From the NCBI GenBank assembly GCA_900319505.1, contig ONOV01000170.1:1-10366 (forward strand): a DNA stretch of 10,366 bases, read 5' to 3'. This stretch comes from an uncultured Erysipelotrichaceae bacterium. Its GTDB lineage: Bacteria; Bacillota_I; Bacilli_A; Erysipelotrichales; Erysipelotrichaceae. Shown here piece by piece: positions 2,373-10,366 of this stretch (the first letter of the stretch is position 1; each line of letters starts with the position of its first letter). Below the pieces are notes generated by a model that saw only the letters and a program-made list of their open reading frames with translations, was not told the origin of the DNA and did not search any database. Position numbers and translations under genes: made by a program.

Positions 2373-2849
2373 CTACTTGTGATAGGGCTCATGGTGCAGA
2401 ATCCGGAAACACCGGTAGATCTGTTCACTGACCATTACCCGGCACAATTGATGCGGGAACGTACAGTCAGAGATCTTCCAGCGATAATCCGCCCTGTTGA
2501 TCAGAGCCCTGGAAACACCCAATGACCCACCGATCACAAAATCGATATGGTTACGGTTTCTATTATACAGCGACTGAAGAAACTGAGCCATCTCAGGTGA
2601 ACTCCATTCCTTTCCGGCAAGATCCAGGAGGATGACATAATCCGTATCCCTGATCTGCTTCAGCAGGCGTTCTCCTTCTTTATCCTTAACCTGTTCGTTC
2701 TGGGCATCGGAATTGCTTTCCGGTGCCTTTTCATCATTCACTTCAACAACTTCAATCTTTTCATAGGGAGAAATTCGTCTGACATATTCCTGCAGTCCGT
2801 CTTTCATCCACTTTTCTTTCATATGCCCGCAGGCAATGATCCGGATCAT
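2373..2849 (-). CDS. rlmH: 23S rRNA (pseudouridine-1915-N3)-methyltransferase RlmH
   Basis: RlmH is a SPOUT-class, SAM-dependent methyltransferase that adds the N3 methyl group to pseudouridine 1915 in helix 69 of 23S rRNA, acting on assembled ribosomes. At 158 residues it has the family length. Diagnostic parts are an NDEKAPES stretch and KDKEGERLL (to about 63), LDLAGK (75-80), the knot glycines IGGSLG (106-111), FPHQLCRV (131-138) and the C-terminal YHK. All expected motifs look intact. Its ATG overlaps the htrA-like stop by four bases (ATGA, 2846-2849) and has only a weak AAGG upstream, so translation is probably coupled. The walJ-htrA-rlmH order matches Bacillus and Staphylococcus. The active product contrasts with its degenerate upstream neighbour. 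Confidence 0.97.
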   Translation of the reverse strand: MIRIIACGHMKEKWMKDGLQEYVRRISPYEKIEVVEVNDEKAPESNSDAQNEQVKDKEGERLLKQIRDTDYVILLDLAGKEWSSPEMAQFLQSLYNRNRNHIDFVIGGSLGVSRALINRADYRWKISDCTFPHQLCRVMVSEQIYRCFRILHHEPYHK

Positions 2850-3877
2850 TGGGCGGTTACCTTCACTTCCGTCTCCTCTTCCCCGCGCACAAGGGTAATG
2901 TCCAGCTCATCCCCGCTGTTACAGCCATACAGTACATCTCTGACATCACTCATATTGGTAATGTCTTTGGTATTGATCCTGGTGATGACATCATCTTCCT
3001 GGATGATATCCTTCAGGGCATCTCCGACCTGATTGACAATGACCCCATCGGTCTGATCGAGCATCATGCCTCTTTCATTCTTCTGATAGGAAGCCAGGCG
3101 CGATACATTGGTCAAAGAAAGATCCAGGGTACCCCGGCTTACCTTTCCATCTGCCACAATCTCATCATAGGCTTTCTTCACATCATTGATGCCCACCGCA
3201 TACGTATCTGCGCCATTGCCATGGTAGTCAGTATTGATCATGCCGATGACAGCACCGGATACATCACAAAGCGGTCCGCCATTGCTTTCCGCAGCCACAT
3301 TGCCGTCAAACCCGATCAGCTGGGTATGGTAGGCTGAACCAGCATTCAATGTATCGGTAAACACCCCGGACATGACCCCGAACGAAATTGCGCCTTCTGA
3401 AACACTGCGGTCATGTCCGCCAAAAGCCGCGCCATATTCCCCGGCATCCACCTGGTCTGCACTGCCTCTGGTGATGGCGGATGCCGTAAAATCCGTATCC
3501 ACTTTAATCACACTGATGCCGGAGCCGGGATCCTCTCCCAGCACCGTTCCTTCCTTCTGGGCACCGGAATCAAACGTCACTGTCGCCTTGCCGTTTTCAT
3601 CCGTCACACTGGCAGCAGTCACAACATAGATGGTGTTATTATCCGTACCGAACACAAAGCCGCTGGCCTTTTCCACACCATTCACCCGGACAATGGAGCC
3701 CTGTACATTCTTGGCCATTTCCGTCAGATCGGAAGTATAGTCAGTTACCGTGTATTCCTGCGGCGGCTCACTCTGCTTTGTCTCGGTTTCTTTTTTCTTC
3801 TTTGAATAGACCTGTACACTCAGCACGACGTTCCACGCCAGCAGAACAGAAAACAGTACCGCAATCCATTTCTTCAT
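2846..3877 (-). CDS. HtrA-like PDZ protein lacking the entire catalytic triad (predicted pseudoprotease)
   Basis: The protein is a membrane-anchored member of the HtrA/DegP trypsin-like family, 343 residues. Residues 1-22 form one hydrophobic N-terminal segment followed by KKKK, with no clear signal peptidase site, so it is probably anchored with the rest outside the cell. Residues about 52-240 follow the HtrA protease fold, and about 250-343 form a PDZ domain. The triad is lost: the VVTAAHV histidine is S90 (VVTAASV), the SDIAVIK-type aspartate is G120 (GSGISVIKV) and the GNSGGPL serine is N199 (ESNGGPL). Surrounding motifs remain good, so the frame is not decayed. AAAGGAGA stands 5 nt before the ATG at 3877, which lies inside walJ; the genes overlap by 110 bp. 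It occupies the htrA/yycK position of the Wal locus. I expect a ligand-binding or regulatory role, but the role is unknown. Confidence 0.92.
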   Translation of the reverse strand: MKKWIAVLFSVLLAWNVVLSVQVYSKKKKETETKQSEPPQEYTVTDYTSDLTEMAKNVQGSIVRVNGVEKASGFVFGTDNNTIYVVTAASVTDENGKATVTFDSGAQKEGTVLGEDPGSGISVIKVDTDFTASAITRGSADQVDAGEYGAAFGGHDRSVSEGAISFGVMSGVFTDTLNAGSAYHTQLIGFDGNVAAESNGGPLCDVSGAVIGMINTDYHGNGADTYAVGINDVKKAYDEIVADGKVSRGTLDLSLTNVSRLASYQKNERGMMLDQTDGVIVNQVGDALKDIIQEDDVITRINTKDITNMSDVRDVLYGCNSGDELDITLVRGEEETEVKVTAQ

Positions 3878-4619
3878 CCGTCTCTCCTTTCGTCAGAATC
3901 TCAAACTGTCCGGCCGCACATACTTTCAAAGCCGGATTCAGATCCGTTCTCTGACGCAGCACCTTCATCGTTTCCTCCAGTGCCTTTTCTCTTGTATTGC
4001 CCTGCTGGGAAATATGAGCCAGGAAGATCATCTTTGTCTTCCCGGTCACAATGTGATCCAGCACTTCAGCACATTCCTCATTGTTCAGATGTCCTTCATC
4101 CGAATAGATTCTTGCCTTGACATACTGCGGCCGTGAGGTATGCATGAGCATCTGTACATCATGATTGCTTTCCATCACGATTGTATCCGCATCCTTCAGC
4201 AGCGGAAAATACTTCTCATTCACATAGCCTGTATCCGTAATATACACCAGCTTCTCCTGCCCGTTTTCCAGGATATAGCCGGTGGTATGCGGGGCATCAT
4301 GGCTTAAGGCAAGCGGAGTGATCTTCAGCGTTTCAATGTAGAAGGAACGCATCGGCCGCACCGCAAATACATCTGTTTCCATCAGTTCCACCGGTGAATA
4401 TACCGGCAGATCCGCAAACAGCTTCAATTGGGAAATATGATCCGTATGATCATGGGTAATCAGCAGCGCATCAATATCATCATGGTGCACCCCTGCTTTC
4501 TCCATCGCTCCCTTCAGATACTTACGGGTTGTCCCGCAGTCTATCATGATACATGTTGTACCATCTCTTACAATACAGCAGTTTCCCTTGGAACCGCTGG
4601 CCAGCAAATCTACTCTCAT
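3768..4619 (-). CDS. walJ: WalJ/YycJ-type metallo-beta-lactamase-fold hydrolase with overlapping C-terminal tail
   Basis: This is a cytosolic MBL-fold protein of the WalJ (YycJ/VicX) family, linked in Bacillota to the WalRK cell-wall regulon and to coordinating division with replication; its substrate is not firmly known. The start MRVDLLASGSKGN is typical. The metal site is complete: H56, H58, D60 and H61 in THDHTDH, H107 in LSHDA, D129 in ITDTG, H177 in EGHLNN and H202 in LAHIS. ESNHD at 150-154 is another family mark. The 283 residues exceed the usual 260-265. The conserved core appears to end near residue 245, and the last 36 codons overlap the htrA-like gene in another frame, giving a charged tail with three cysteines. 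The start overlaps the M23 stop as ATGA (4616-4619), suggesting coupled translation. Confidence 0.94.
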   Translation of the reverse strand: MRVDLLASGSKGNCCIVRDGTTCIMIDCGTTRKYLKGAMEKAGVHHDDIDALLITHDHTDHISQLKLFADLPVYSPVELMETDVFAVRPMRSFYIETLKITPLALSHDAPHTTGYILENGQEKLVYITDTGYVNEKYFPLLKDADTIVMESNHDVQMLMHTSRPQYVKARIYSDEGHLNNEECAEVLDHIVTGKTKMIFLAHISQQGNTREKALEETMKVLRQRTDLNPALKVCAAGQFEILTKGETDEEMDCGTVFCSAGVERRAECTGLFKEEKRNRDKAE

Positions 4620-6133
4620 TCCTGCTGATACGCCTCACAATCCATAAACCCGTCACATGCATTCAGATGGGTGTCGCTTCCATCCTGTGTAATATAGAAC
4701 AGCAGCATCGCTCCCGGTGCACTGCCGCTGGCCCCGATCTGTCCGATCACCTGGCCCCGCTGCACCGTATCGCCAACCTGTACGGAAGCACTGTTATTGA
4801 GATGGCCATAATGGGAATAATACCCGTTATGATGATCAATCACACAATAGCTGCCTTCCGTTTCATCATAGCCGACCGCCGCTACCGTACCGGTATCCGC
4901 CGCCTTCACATCGCCATAGCGGTCATACTGATTGATGAGATCAATGCCTTCATGATCCGCGTAATCCTCAAACCCCGCCAGAATCAGAGCATGATCCACC
5001 GGCATGATCCAGCTGCCGGTTCCGCTTAAAGGCGTATGATCATCCTTGATGGCGATGATCTCATCGGTTTTCTCTTTGACAGTATAGGAAGAGATCAAAG
5101 TGCCCTTCATGAGTATGCCGTTGATCCATGTCTCTTCATAGAGACAATTCTCACTGCCGGCTTCGCCTTCCTGCAGTACACTCTCCCCCTCCTGGGCCAT
5201 GGCATCATTCACCACATAGCTCAAAGCAGGATCTTCGGTCTCATTGACCAGCCTGTGTTTCACAACCGTTACAGTCAATGGTGATTCAAGATAGGTCACA
5301 CAGAGACTGCTGCCGGTTATGACACTGGTGCTGTTTTCATTCAGCCTGTCAGGATTGATGCGGATCAATTGTTCACGGGTCAGACCCTGTCTTGCCGCAA
5401 AGCCATCCAGAGTATCCTGACCTTCCACCGTATCATAGACAGGCTTTGTATCATGCCCATAACAGAGATACTGGAAGACGGCATCTTTGTCTGTATATAC
5501 CTCATTCACCGGGGCATACGCGGTATGATACGTTATTTTCTGATCAATCCGCAGCGATACCGGCACACTGCCATAACTGTTCAGCGATGTATTGACACTG
5601 TCATTTTTCAGCTCTTTCAATTCATCTTCACTGACAAAAAGACACAGAAAATCATGCAGGGACTCGGTAAAAAGACTCTTCTTCAGTACATAGATCCGAT
5701 CATACACAGCTGTACTGTCCGCAAACTCAACCGCCTCACACTTCAAAGTAAACAGATGATTCTTCTTCAGATAGGAAAGAATGGCATCATCCGCATTTTC
5801 ATAAGTGATGTTTGTCTCTTCCTTGACAACATTGACATCTGCTCCGGTATTGAGTTCACTGTCAGGATAGTCCTTTTCGTATTCCTTCTCATACGTCTCT
5901 TTCAGAAAATGATTGAGCACAGAAGGAGAAGATAGCGTACCGATAAGCTTTCCTTCCTGATAGATGCGCACGGCTGTATGGCGTCTGAAAGAAAAGCCGG
6001 TAATATTCTGTTCCACAAGTCCTTCCTGTCCTTCCATTTCCACCGTACCGTTGCCATGGATCAGCACCGGTACACCGATGGAAAGAAAGATCGATGTACA
6101 GACCAATATAAAAATGGCAAGAAAGCGTTTCAT
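4616..6133 (-). CDS. Membrane-anchored LysM-G5-M23 protein with degenerate LytM active site
   Basis: This is a 505-residue cell-envelope protein. Residues 4-25 are a hydrophobic N-terminal anchor. Residues about 45-220 form an extracellular region I do not recognise. A LysM-like peptidoglycan-binding segment spans about 232-281 and a G5-type domain about 284-362. An M23 (LytM) domain spans about 375-505. The first zinc motif is intact (H394-x3-D398 in HEGID) and H444 in YGHL is kept. The third motif, normally GPHLHF, reads GAMLLF, so the general-base histidine and the third zinc ligand are M476 and L478. Hydrolysis of peptidoglycan cross-links is therefore unlikely. Degenerate LytM proteins such as EnvC, NlpD and SpoIIQ act as activators or scaffolds. 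It precedes walJ where walRKHI stand in other Bacillota. No ribosome binding site lies at normal distance from the ATG. Confidence 0.92.
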   Translation of the reverse strand: MKRFLAIFILVCTSIFLSIGVPVLIHGNGTVEMEGQEGLVEQNITGFSFRRHTAVRIYQEGKLIGTLSSPSVLNHFLKETYEKEYEKDYPDSELNTGADVNVVKEETNITYENADDAILSYLKKNHLFTLKCEAVEFADSTAVYDRIYVLKKSLFTESLHDFLCLFVSEDELKELKNDSVNTSLNSYGSVPVSLRIDQKITYHTAYAPVNEVYTDKDAVFQYLCYGHDTKPVYDTVEGQDTLDGFAARQGLTREQLIRINPDRLNENSTSVITGSSLCVTYLESPLTVTVVKHRLVNETEDPALSYVVNDAMAQEGESVLQEGEAGSENCLYEETWINGILMKGTLISSYTVKEKTDEIIAIKDDHTPLSGTGSWIMPVDHALILAGFEDYADHEGIDLINQYDRYGDVKAADTGTVAAVGYDETEGSYCVIDHHNGYYSHYGHLNNSASVQVGDTVQRGQVIGQIGASGSAPGAMLLFYITQDGSDTHLNACDGFMDCEAYQQE

Positions 6134-6186: not shown

Positions 6187-7557
6187 TCAAAGGGTGCCGG
6201 AAGGCTCCTGGGCATTGGACAGGTTGTAAATCGCATTTGTATCAGCCTGGAACGCTACTTTGATGGTTTCGGTCGCACCGTTACGGTGCTTGGCAATATT
6301 GATTTCAAGCGGTTCGGTTCCGGTCCGCTGCGCCTCTTCCTTGGCCGCCGCATTGTAATAGGAATCACGATACAGCATCATGACAATATCCGCATCCTGC
6401 TCAATGGCACCTGATTCACGCAGGTCGGAAAGCATCGGCCGCTTGTTCTCACGTGTTTCAACGGTACGTGACAGCTGTGACAGGGCAATGACCGGTACAT
6501 TCAATTCACGCGCAAGATTCTTCAGAGAACGGGAAATATCAGATACTTCCTGCTGACGGGAATCTGTCGGACGTCCTCTTGCCGCGGTGATCAGCTGAAT
6601 ATAGTCGATCAGAATCATGGACAGGCCGGCATCGGCCTGCAGTCTTCTGCACTTGGCCGCAATATCCGTGACCCGGGTCATGGAGTTATCATCAATATAC
6701 AGCTTGGCAGCACTTAACTGGGCTACTGCTTCCGAAAGGGTATTCATCTCATTGTCATTGAGCTGGCCTGTTTTGATCTTATCACCGGCAATGCCGCTTT
6801 TGGCACTGAGTAAACGCATGGCAAGTGATTCCGCGCCCATTTCAAGCGAGAAGATCGCCACAGCTTTGTCTCTCTGATACATGGCAACATTCATGGCCAG
6901 ATTCAGGGCTACTGCTGTTTTACCCATGGAAGGACGGGCTGCCAGAATGATCAGATCCCCATTCTGGAAACCATGCAGGTTGCGGTCCAATAGATCAAAT
7001 CCGGTCTTCAGACCGATGATCGTGGAATGCTTTTCCTTCATGGCCCGGATATGTTCCATGGTTTCCGCCATCAGCTGCGGGGAGGCAATGAATTCACCGG
7101 CTCTTCGATCATGCGAAACCGCCAGCACCTTCTTCTCACACTCATCCAGATACGCATCCACGCTCTCCGTGCCGTTCATGCCTTCTTCCGCCACTTCCTG
7201 GCCGACCTGTATCATCCGGCGCATCAAAGCCTTATCACGGATCATATTGATATAGGCACCGGTATTCCACGAAGTCACCGACGCATTCATGAGCGTTGTG
7301 ATATAGGATATCCCGCCGACATTTTCCAGCTGTTTATCATCCTCAAGCCGGGTAACTACCGTCGTTGAATCAATGGCGGTATTTTCCTGGTACAGCTTCT
7401 GCATCGTACTGAAGATAATGCGGTTGGCATCCGAGAAGAAATCATCCGGGGATAAACCGGATTCCATCGCCGGCCTCACCGCATTCTCCGGATACATCAG
7501 CAGTGTACCAAGCAGAGCTGCCTCTGCTTCCAGGGCAGCAGGCAATTTAGAGCTCAT
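6187..7557 (-). CDS. dnaB: Replicative DNA helicase DnaB (DnaC in Bacillus)
   Basis: This is the hexameric 5'-3' replicative helicase that unwinds DNA at the fork and binds primase. The 456 residues match the family length (about 440-470). An N-terminal all-helical domain (about 5-105) has the typical AALEAEAALLGTLL start, then a linker and a RecA-fold motor from about 175. Visible motifs are Walker A ARPSMGKT (207-214, K213), Walker B ILIDY (316-320, D319), the sensor region ALSQLSR (358-364), SDLRESGAIEQDAD (377-390) and KHRNG (423-427) carrying the likely arginine finger R425. No intein is present. The ATG overlaps the rplI stop by 4 bp (7554-7557). The rplI-dnaB pairing is conserved in Bacillota. 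Two tandem TGA codons end the frame. Confidence 0.98.
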   Translation of the reverse strand: MSSKLPAALEAEAALLGTLLMYPENAVRPAMESGLSPDDFFSDANRIIFSTMQKLYQENTAIDSTTVVTRLEDDKQLENVGGISYITTLMNASVTSWNTGAYINMIRDKALMRRMIQVGQEVAEEGMNGTESVDAYLDECEKKVLAVSHDRRAGEFIASPQLMAETMEHIRAMKEKHSTIIGLKTGFDLLDRNLHGFQNGDLIILAARPSMGKTAVALNLAMNVAMYQRDKAVAIFSLEMGAESLAMRLLSAKSGIAGDKIKTGQLNDNEMNTLSEAVAQLSAAKLYIDDNSMTRVTDIAAKCRRLQADAGLSMILIDYIQLITAARGRPTDSRQQEVSDISRSLKNLARELNVPVIALSQLSRTVETRENKRPMLSDLRESGAIEQDADIVMMLYRDSYYNAAAKEEAQRTGTEPLEINIAKHRNGATETIKVAFQADTNAIYNLSNAQEPSGTL

Positions 7558-8011: not shown

Positions 8012-9973
8012 TTATTCCTCCTTCGCACTTTCTTCAAAATAGGCATCAATTGCGCTGATCAGTTCTTTGCGCATGCCCTCTATTGACGTCTTGGGCCGCT
8101 GCACAGCTGCTGCGGTCATATGACCGCCGCCGTGCATGCGCTCGAGAATCCACTGTACATTGACCTTTCCGGCACTGCGGGCACTGATGCATGTTTCCCC
8201 ATGATCCGAATCCGCAATGATGAATACCGCTTCCACACCCTGTATATCCAGCAGCATATCCGCGGTCTGCGACATGAGCGAACGGCTGATGGTACGCAGA
8301 TTGAACGGACATATGACAATGCCGTGTTCATACCGCTGGGCACTGGAAGCCACCTGGTTCTTGAGGTTGAATTCCTCATATGTATCCTTGAGATAGGTAT
8401 TGGAAAGCTGCGGATCAGCCCCATACTTCTTCAGGGCACTGGCCGCATCATATGTACGCGAGCCCGTCCGCACATGCCAGTGGTTTGTATCAATGGTCAT
8501 GCCCGTTAACATGATCGTCGCATCAAGGGCACTGATATCCGTGCGTGCCGATACATACGGAATCATCTCCGTTACCAGCTCACACGCACTGGAAGCACCA
8601 GCTTCAAGATAAACAAGCACCGGCTTGACCCCCATCTCGGTAGATCTTCTATGATGGTCGATAATGACAACCTTTCGAGCCGCTTCTTCCACCCTTGGTC
8701 CATTGGACTGTACGACAGAATGGTGGTCCGTCATGATAACAAGGGTATTGGGTTTCAGCTGATTGAGCGCTTCGGACTCTGTCACAAAGCTGACTTCCCT
8801 GCTTAACGCTTCTTCATTCTCTTTGAGACATGCCGCAAGCTTTTCTTCTATACCGCCGCTCTTGGCAATGATAACTGCCTGCTTCTTCAACGCAGATGCC
8901 ATTCTGGCTAAGGCAATCGCACTGCCCATACAGTCAAAGTCCGCATTCTTATGCCCGCAGATAATCACATTGGACGCATTCATCATGAGCTCTCTTAAGG
9001 TATGCGAAATAACTCTGACCCTGACCCGGCTGCGCTTTTCCGCCGCTTCACTGGAGCCGCCATAGTACTGCACATCTTCACCATACGCCTGTACGGCCAC
9101 CTGGTCGCCGCCGCGCGTCTTGGCAAGATCCATCAGCTTATTGACCATACTGTCCAGTTCCCCCAGATCATCTGTACCTCTGGCAAACGCCATGGACAGA
9201 GTAATAGACACATCCTGGGCACTGGAAGCCTTACGCACCCCATTCAATACCGAGAAATGATCATGAACAAGTTCCGTAAAGATCTTTTCATTCAATACCA
9301 TCAGGTATCTGGCATTGGCAATGCGCTTGATCAGAATACCGTGCTTCTGACAATACTCCGTCAAAGGCGTACGCACCGCCGTATTGATCTGGGCCGCTTC
9401 GGTTTCATCGGCATACTGCACACTTTCTTCGTAGTTATCAAATGAACTCATTCCGATGACAAGACGGCTCGTCAGATATTTATTCTTATAGTTCTGTATA
9501 TCCGTCACATCCCGGAAGTACATGATCGGCGCATCCGGCTTTCTTCTGATCTCATAGATCCGATCATCCAGCTGTACCGTACCGGAATCCAGCTCTCCCG
9601 AAAGTATCCTGACACTTTCCGGCAGCCACTCCGTCAGCTTATCCCCGACCCGGTCAATACCTCTTTCTTCAAACAGCTCACTCATCCAGGTGATATTGTA
9701 CTTGTCATCATAGATGATCAGTCCTACCTGGCCGAAATCAAAAGCCTCCTGGGACGAGGTGCCGAGAATACTGCGGACCCCGGAGTTCTGTTCTTCATAG
9801 ATATCCTGAAACGCATCAAACAGATAGAAAATCAATACCGCTTCAACAATCAGAATGACAACCGCGGTCATGATCCCCTGTCTTAATCCCGTACGGAACA
9901 GAAACAGCAGAACCGCCTGAACGATAATCGCTGCCAGCACAATGTGCTGCAGACGGGTAATCTTACTGCGCAT
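8012..9973 (-). CDS. gdpP: Cyclic-di-AMP phosphodiesterase GdpP (YybT)
   Basis: GdpP is a membrane-bound enzyme that hydrolyses c-di-AMP to pApA and so controls osmolyte balance, wall stress and beta-lactam tolerance. From the ATG at 9973 it has 653 residues, close to the usual 655. Order of parts: two membrane helices (about 10-27 and 34-53), a PAS-like sensor (about 75-150), a degenerate GGDEF domain (about 170-300), the DHH domain (from about 330) and DHHA1 with GGGH at 615-618. Metal-binding residues are visible: H341, D345 and D347 in HKNADFD, D416 in TDHHS, D439-H440-H441 in IDHHR and D495 in TIDTNHW. The start at 9973 is preferred over the upstream in-frame ATG at 10036 because GGGAGG lies 8-9 nt before it and the longer form would overlap yybS by 74 bp. 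The chosen start overlaps yybS by 11 bp. Confidence 0.97.
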   Translation of the reverse strand: MRSKITRLQHIVLAAIIVQAVLLFLFRTGLRQGIMTAVVILIVEAVLIFYLFDAFQDIYEEQNSGVRSILGTSSQEAFDFGQVGLIIYDDKYNITWMSELFEERGIDRVGDKLTEWLPESVRILSGELDSGTVQLDDRIYEIRRKPDAPIMYFRDVTDIQNYKNKYLTSRLVIGMSSFDNYEESVQYADETEAAQINTAVRTPLTEYCQKHGILIKRIANARYLMVLNEKIFTELVHDHFSVLNGVRKASSAQDVSITLSMAFARGTDDLGELDSMVNKLMDLAKTRGGDQVAVQAYGEDVQYYGGSSEAAEKRSRVRVRVISHTLRELMMNASNVIICGHKNADFDCMGSAIALARMASALKKQAVIIAKSGGIEEKLAACLKENEEALSREVSFVTESEALNQLKPNTLVIMTDHHSVVQSNGPRVEEAARKVVIIDHHRRSTEMGVKPVLVYLEAGASSACELVTEMIPYVSARTDISALDATIMLTGMTIDTNHWHVRTGSRTYDAASALKKYGADPQLSNTYLKDTYEEFNLKNQVASSAQRYEHGIVICPFNLRTISRSLMSQTADMLLDIQGVEAVFIIADSDHGETCISARSAGKVNVQWILERMHGGGHMTAAAVQRPKTSIEGMRKELISAIDAYFEESAKEE

Positions 9974-10366
9974 TTCTTCTTCCTCCCTCTTCGAGAATTC
10001 TTTCATGCATATGCGTGGAAATATAGAAGAAGCCAAGAATACACATGAACCTTGTCAGCATAAAGCAGAGAATGCATAAAAGGATGACGCCGCCCTTGGG
10101 CATATGAAACAGCTGGCGCAGAATCACCGCCATGGCAATCAGTCCCCAGATCAGCAGATACATCAAAGCAAGAATGCCAAGTGACTGAATCACCATCTGG
10201 GCCATATCATTGCTTAAAGGCCTGGCTACGGAATAGTAGTACAGTACCACTCCGGCCAGACCCGCATAACCGGTCCATTTGGCAGGATAATACTGTGATA
10301 CCGGTACATCCGCTTCGGTCTTCATATGCATGCGGCGCATCATCAGCCTGGCCAGCATATGCGTCA
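9963..10366 (-). CDS. YybS-like DUF2232 membrane protein, C-terminal part (5'-truncated by window edge)
   Basis: The frame is open to the right window edge, leaving about 133 C-terminal residues; the true start is outside. Three hydrophobic helices are visible: near WTGYAGLAGVVLYYY, a long one around LGILALMYLLIWGLIA, and VILLCILCFMLTRF. A short polar tail follows. Both the pattern and the position immediately before gdpP fit the YybS/DUF2232 family, whose role is not well established; some annotations suggest a transporter substrate-binding-like component. It overlaps gdpP by 11 bp (9963-9973), so the two are probably co-translated. The family call rests mainly on synteny and hydrophobicity. 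Confidence 0.75.
   Translation of the reverse strand, partial: THMLARLMMRRMHMKTEADVPVSQYYPAKWTGYAGLAGVVLYYYSVARPLSNDMAQMVIQSLGILALMYLLIWGLIAMAVILRQLFHMPKGGVILLCILCFMLTRFMCILGFFYISTHMHERILEEGGRRNAQ

Follow-up and report, generated by a model that had tools for sequence, protein, structure and literature searches.

Loss of the catalytic triad across a genus in an rlmH-linked HtrA-family protein of Erysipelotrichaceae

The window analysed here, a 10,366-nucleotide stretch of DNA from an uncultured Erysipelotrichaceae bacterium (assembly GCA_900319505.1, contig ONOV01000170.1; C33 in our set), belongs to a 1.56-Mb draft genome that is 92% complete and encodes, on the minus strand beside rlmH, an HtrA-like protein in which all three residues of the catalytic His-Asp-Ser triad and the oxyanion glycine are replaced. 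The protein keeps the HtrA fold, the catalytic His is lost in all genus members read, close gene pairs from the genus are under purifying selection, and an intact HtrA is encoded elsewhere in the genome. We consider it probable that this is the rlmH-linked HtrA of the family, in the position of HtrC of Bacillus, kept as a pseudoprotease that is anchored in the membrane, faces outward and binds without cutting.

The HtrA-like gene and its product

The gene (2846..3877, minus strand) starts with ATG and, as the initial annotation had it, runs uninterrupted for 343 codons, encoding an N-terminal helix, a Trypsin_2 domain and one PDZ domain. Pfam places Trypsin_2 at residues 71-213 (51.8 bits against a cut-off of 27.6) and PDZ_2 at residues 274-341 (34.7 bits against 27), and this combination of Trypsin_2 and a C-terminal PDZ in an HtrA fold assigns the product to the HtrA family by descent and structure. 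Alignment with intact HtrAs confirmed that Ser90 (codon at 3608..3610), Gly120 (3518..3520) and Asn199 (3281..3283), all on the minus strand, occupy the columns of the catalytic His, Asp and Ser. The accompanying claim that the flanking motifs are well kept holds only in part, as the oxyanion Gly of GNSGG is replaced by Glu197 and this position is variable across the genus; neither the triad nor the oxyanion Gly that mark an S1C serine endopeptidase is present. The same S/G/N letters were read in P0002, a 97% identical protein that represents a 42-member database cluster and was its only member read; this, together with the lack of His in readable genus orthologues, makes chance or assembly error unlikely.

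The helix at residues 2-28 of the model (3794..3874, minus strand), read as a signal anchor, contains columns that are strongly conserved across the genus rows (W15 100%, N16 94%, L19 99%), in a segment that overlaps the end of the neighbouring walJ-like gene in another frame. The PDZ part, residues 244-343 (2849..3148, minus strand), contains the conserved residues Y264, K266 and D274.

Loss of the triad across the genus

The genus set comprised 70 species genomes with the same genus code as the window genome, of which 68 gave a match to the window protein (that in G193 to the other HtrA only), and the gene was read in 67: the window, 64 loci placed in the tree and two partial loci. The catalytic column holds His in none of 66 genus genes, with a gap there in L051 and L067; the remaining gene, partial L095, is without the His region. 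Of the 64 loci in the tree, 28 retain Asp, four Ser and six the oxyanion Gly, the last being present in 52 of 53 active orthologues from outside the genus. Ranked from the most variable down, the Ser column comes 11th and the oxyanion column 14th among the 183 protease-domain columns of the genus, whereas the active orthologues have an invariant Ser and a nearly invariant oxyanion Gly. Of the conservation that the initial annotation proposed to look for in homologues, the loss of the triad proved to be genus-wide but the letters S/G/N themselves are not conserved, and they therefore look like drift after loss and not like a new motif.

A 150-row tree was built with the triad columns removed, leaving out 15 of the 165 aligned rows (the duplicates L141-L145, the partial loci L094 and L095, and the other HtrAs P0016-P0023). 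The genus rows form one clade (Shimodaira-Hasegawa-like approximate likelihood ratio test 99) of 79 rows: the window, the 64 loci and 14 database proteins. The genus set omits P0008, which is near-identical to L033, and five extra loci from a scan of the genome contigs, all resembling genus loci in the set, were excluded from the counts. One part of the clade (29 rows) keeps Asp in 24, and the other (50 rows, including the window) has Gly in the Asp column in 38; this split was not recovered in a careful 55-row tree, where several of these rows were unplaced. An order of loss in which His went first, and Ser and Asp later, would fit the pattern in the tree. Database protein names can mislead here: P0029, named 'S1C family serine protease [Solobacterium sp.]', has active-site motifs letter-identical to those of L062, whose triad columns read Lys, Asp and Thr.

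Losses outside the genus

The 71 rows from outside the genus with the same family code, which are most of the best-scoring matches and not a random draw, comprise 61 with His-Asp-Ser (HDS), two with Thr in the Ser column (HDT) and eight in which the triad is lost. Of the 71, three canonical paralogues served as the outgroup and five have no neighbours in the fetched piece; these were dropped from the HDS rows to give the 53 active orthologues used for entropy and residue counts. L025 and L101 are the two orthologues with Thr for the catalytic Ser, and both keep His and Asp. Several lost rows stand beside intact sisters (among them L097 with L020 and L023; L140 with L132, L134 and L139). Parsimony counts eight changes on the careful tree and eight on the large tree, or nine if Thr for Ser is scored as a loss; these are taken as losses because regain of a triad is unlikely, although the counts alone cannot separate loss from gain. 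The approximately unbiased (AU) test rejects the grouping of all 21 lost rows in a single clade (p = 8e-50), as well as the genus joined with L097 (p = 0.009) or with L140 (p = 0.003), for groups picked after inspection of the tree, and the long branches L105, L114 and L133 are of unsure placement. In another family of the same order all 20 genes read are HDS, but the fetched pieces hold no rlmH or walJ, so these may be a different HtrA.

The intact paralogue

A search for a second, intact htrA in the window's own genome, suggested by the initial annotation, found one. All 41 canonical HtrA loci that were read keep His-Asp-Ser; they come from 37 genus genomes and four others with a triad-less rlmH-linked gene (G005, G018, G046 and G053); four further non-genus genomes with such a gene lay outside this reading. 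The rlmH-linked gene is also held by 34 of the 37 genus genomes and was not found in G031, G075 and G193. Since canonical HtrA is intact in the same genomes, the pattern is unlikely to stem from errors in the draft genomes or from poor alignment. Further trypsin-like genes were seen in some genomes.

Selection and conservation

The ratio of nonsynonymous to synonymous substitution rates (dN/dS), calculated by the method of Nei and Gojobori (NG86), is well under 1 in the 16 close pairs compared within the genus, none of which includes the window gene (0.023-0.171, median 0.10), and is lower again in nine active pairs (0.014-0.095, median 0.03; Mann-Whitney p = 0.0017, the pairs being hand-picked and some sharing rows). 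A tenth active pair was dropped for want of a finite dS, and in another active one dS is saturated at 3.2. For rlmH in the same pairs the medians are 0.04 (genus) and 0.06 (active); a single genus pair reaches 0.27. Change in the HtrA-like gene of the genus is clearly selected against, if less tightly than in the active pairs, and the purifying selection that the initial annotation proposed to look for is borne out for these pairs. Mean column entropy is 1.78 bits in the active rows and 2.18 in the genus for the protease part, and 2.18 and 2.07 bits, respectively, for the PDZ part. Columns at 96-100% across the genus include F102, D116, F130 and Y264; F130 and D116 show no variation and Y264 hardly any, with D116 equally fixed in the active rows. 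No internal stop occurs in any of the rlmH-linked genus matches listed.

Gene neighbourhood and the M23 peptidase

All genes named in this row lie on the minus strand. The HtrA-like gene is overlapped at its stop codon by rlmH (2373..2849), encoding the 23S rRNA methyltransferase (NCBIfam RlmH 198.6 bits against a cut-off of 172), with a 4-alpha-glucanotransferase gene at 854-2341; on the other side are a metallo-beta-lactamase-fold gene (3768..4619, Pfam Lactamase_B_2) that we take to be walJ/yycJ-like from its fold and place, a G5 plus M23 peptidase gene (4616..6133, Pfam M23 67.9 bits) and a presumably dnaB-like gene (6187-7557). This adjacency to rlmH is that of an HtrA in the HtrC position, and m23, walJ and rlmH accompany the HtrA gene in 60 of the 64 genus loci. 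walJ and the HtrA-like gene share 110 bases (3768-3877), at the end of the former and the start of the latter, in different frames, and overlaps of the two open frames, taken stop to stop, are present in most genus loci. Elsewhere in the window, upstream of a GdpP-like gene, 9963-10358 encodes a hydrophobic-looking protein of 131 residues that matches no Pfam or NCBIfam family.

The zinc motif of the window's M23 protein is degenerate, with Met-Leu-Leu for His-x-His at residues 476-478 (4700..4708, minus strand; motif table). Counting the window, 56 of the 61 genus loci read retain the motif, as do all 59 read outside the genus. The exceptions are the window, Lactimicrobium massiliense, L004, L007 and L083; losses with letters other than those of the window occur in L033, L004, L007, L083 and L149, all of them genus loci. 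In G075 and G031, the two genomes that have all but lost the rlmH-linked HtrA gene, one His is lost and all are kept, respectively. Every exception occurs with an HtrA that is deleted or lacks the entire triad, but most fully dead HtrAs adjoin an intact M23; with few cases, some in related lineages, this co-loss is a lead and not a test. Many of the M23 C-terminal tails share a two-Cys pattern such as NPCxGFLxC, perhaps forming a disulfide. Regarding this C-terminus as a PDZ ligand, the tails have that pattern in common and their last residues differ.

Comparison with known systems

HtrC (HtrA3, YycK) of Bacillus is a membrane-anchored protease with one PDZ domain, and the window protein resembles it in having one PDZ and a probable membrane anchor as well as in its placement next to rlmH. 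According to the accessible part of a review, B. subtilis htrA3 and B. anthracis htrA2 adjoin rlmH (PMC12826053). HtrC is described in excerpts of another paper as cleaving YpeB in spore germination (PMC13393411), whereas the window protein has no triad with which to cut. A search for YpeB (PF14620) found none in the window's own genome and, in 145 family genomes, two weak matches and none over the cut-off. Absence of YpeB was rejected as a discriminator that could explain the lost cutting, since no genome exceeds the cut-off whether its gene is active or inactive; the weak matches are one of each kind (G014 with HDS, G017 with FGN). In the excerpts available YpeB is the partner of a cortex-lytic enzyme. 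A link of the rlmH-side HtrA to wall hydrolases could be old, though YpeB was not found in the family genomes.

Pseudoproteases of the HtrA type, such as MamO, and inactive serine protease homologues are already known. In the accessible text on MamO (PMC4794232), this protein has an HtrA-type protease domain with a degenerate triad and works non-catalytically alongside an active protease, such pseudoproteases arose independently in three magnetosome taxa, and MamO differs from the window protein in its TauE transporter domain, metal-binding di-histidine and magnetosome role. The window protein has a PDZ, no TauE domain in the Pfam scan, and comes from another phylum; it scores 20.9 bits against the NCBIfam MamO equivalog, whose cut-off is 800. 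The comparison with MamO drawn in the initial annotation is thus right in kind, but nothing ties the window protein to MamO itself. Canonical S1C HtrAs (HtrA, DegP, DegQ and DegS) have the fold and domain order in common with it but act with His-Asp-Ser, where the window protein has all three residues and the oxyanion Gly replaced. A 2008 count gave 42 putative inactive serine protease homologues among 966 in 91 prokaryotic genomes (PMC2605481), its available portion mentioning neither a clade of this kind nor a locus with repeated loss. A full-text search, with most subscription papers outside its reach, found no report of the clade described here.

Function and alternative explanations

A cutting site lost genus-wide in a gene that is kept suggests binding rather than cutting. 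The N-terminal helix would anchor the protein to the membrane, facing outward, and the PDZ and the emptied protease groove may bind partner proteins or their C-termini, which would give it a putative envelope role as scaffold, holder or competitor. One candidate partner is the M23 protein of the cell wall encoded in the same gene row, and proteolysis would be left to canonical HtrA. Several points weigh against this. Canonical-type HtrA (PF13365, E below 1e-30) is found in 62 of the 70 genus genomes and not in the other eight, of which seven are less than 90% complete and one is at 90%. The PDZ is altered, with Asp252 in the window where Gly stands in 96% of active orthologues and 72% of the genus, and its lower entropy in the genus partly reflects the comparison of one genus with many. 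The genus dN/dS, about three times that of the active pairs, indicates relaxed constraint. The gene is nearly gone in two of the 70 species and so dispensable in some: 187 bases remain between walJ and rlmH in G075 (L149:3748-3934), and G031 has an 81-residue frame there (L146:1256-1501) whose start resembles the HtrA membrane helix, in a segment that overlaps walJ.

These remnants and the raised dN/dS, together with a median root-to-tip distance of 3.47 in the genus against 2.28 in the active rows, favour slow decay, in which the job was lost at the base of the genus and a fading gene is kept in frame partly by its overlap with walJ and rlmH and by co-transcription. We regard this as unlikely, as dN/dS remains at 0.02-0.17 in the 16 genus pairs, the listed matches are free of stops, columns such as F102 and F130 stay near fixation and the walJ overlap reaches only about the first 36 codons. 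An improbable alternative is a non-proteolytic chaperone or holdase, with the empty groove binding unfolded secreted proteins; the fold is kept and, in the available part of one study, inactive HtrA improved B. subtilis fitness during amylase overproduction (PMC10715036), but the protease part is now the more variable half in the genus, and HtrA chaperone activity has not been definitively demonstrated in Gram-positives according to the review cited above (PMC12826053, accessible part). Mixed trimers with intact HtrA, in which the protein would tune activity or recruit substrates, agree with the wide presence of canonical-type HtrA; the two paralogues are deeply separated in the tree, however, and such a regulatory role seems quite improbable. 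That the protein is still an enzyme through a relocated catalytic group is hardly credible: no supporting evidence was found, and across 78 genus rows (residues 40-343) no column exceeds 35% His or 17% Cys, so that a relocated triad with a conserved replacement His or Cys was rejected. The phrase 'maintained pseudoprotease' in the initial annotation is supported by the genus-wide loss, open frames, low genus dN/dS, lack of a conserved alternative His or Cys and second intact HtrA; the role of sensor or chaperone proposed there is conjectural.

Beyond a pseudoprotease that binds without cutting, a tentative and rather doubtful extension is that the main work of the family's rlmH-linked HtrA is non-proteolytic, as a PDZ scaffold controlling its M23 neighbour, so that the cutting site could be lost about eight times; in the window's lineage the hydrolase would then have followed, leaving two dead peptidases as a structural pair. 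Within one family and at one gene place, the states range from an intact HtrA, over partly and fully lost triads, to deletion of the gene. With the intact paralogue as its control, this natural series allows one to ask what HtrA does apart from cutting.
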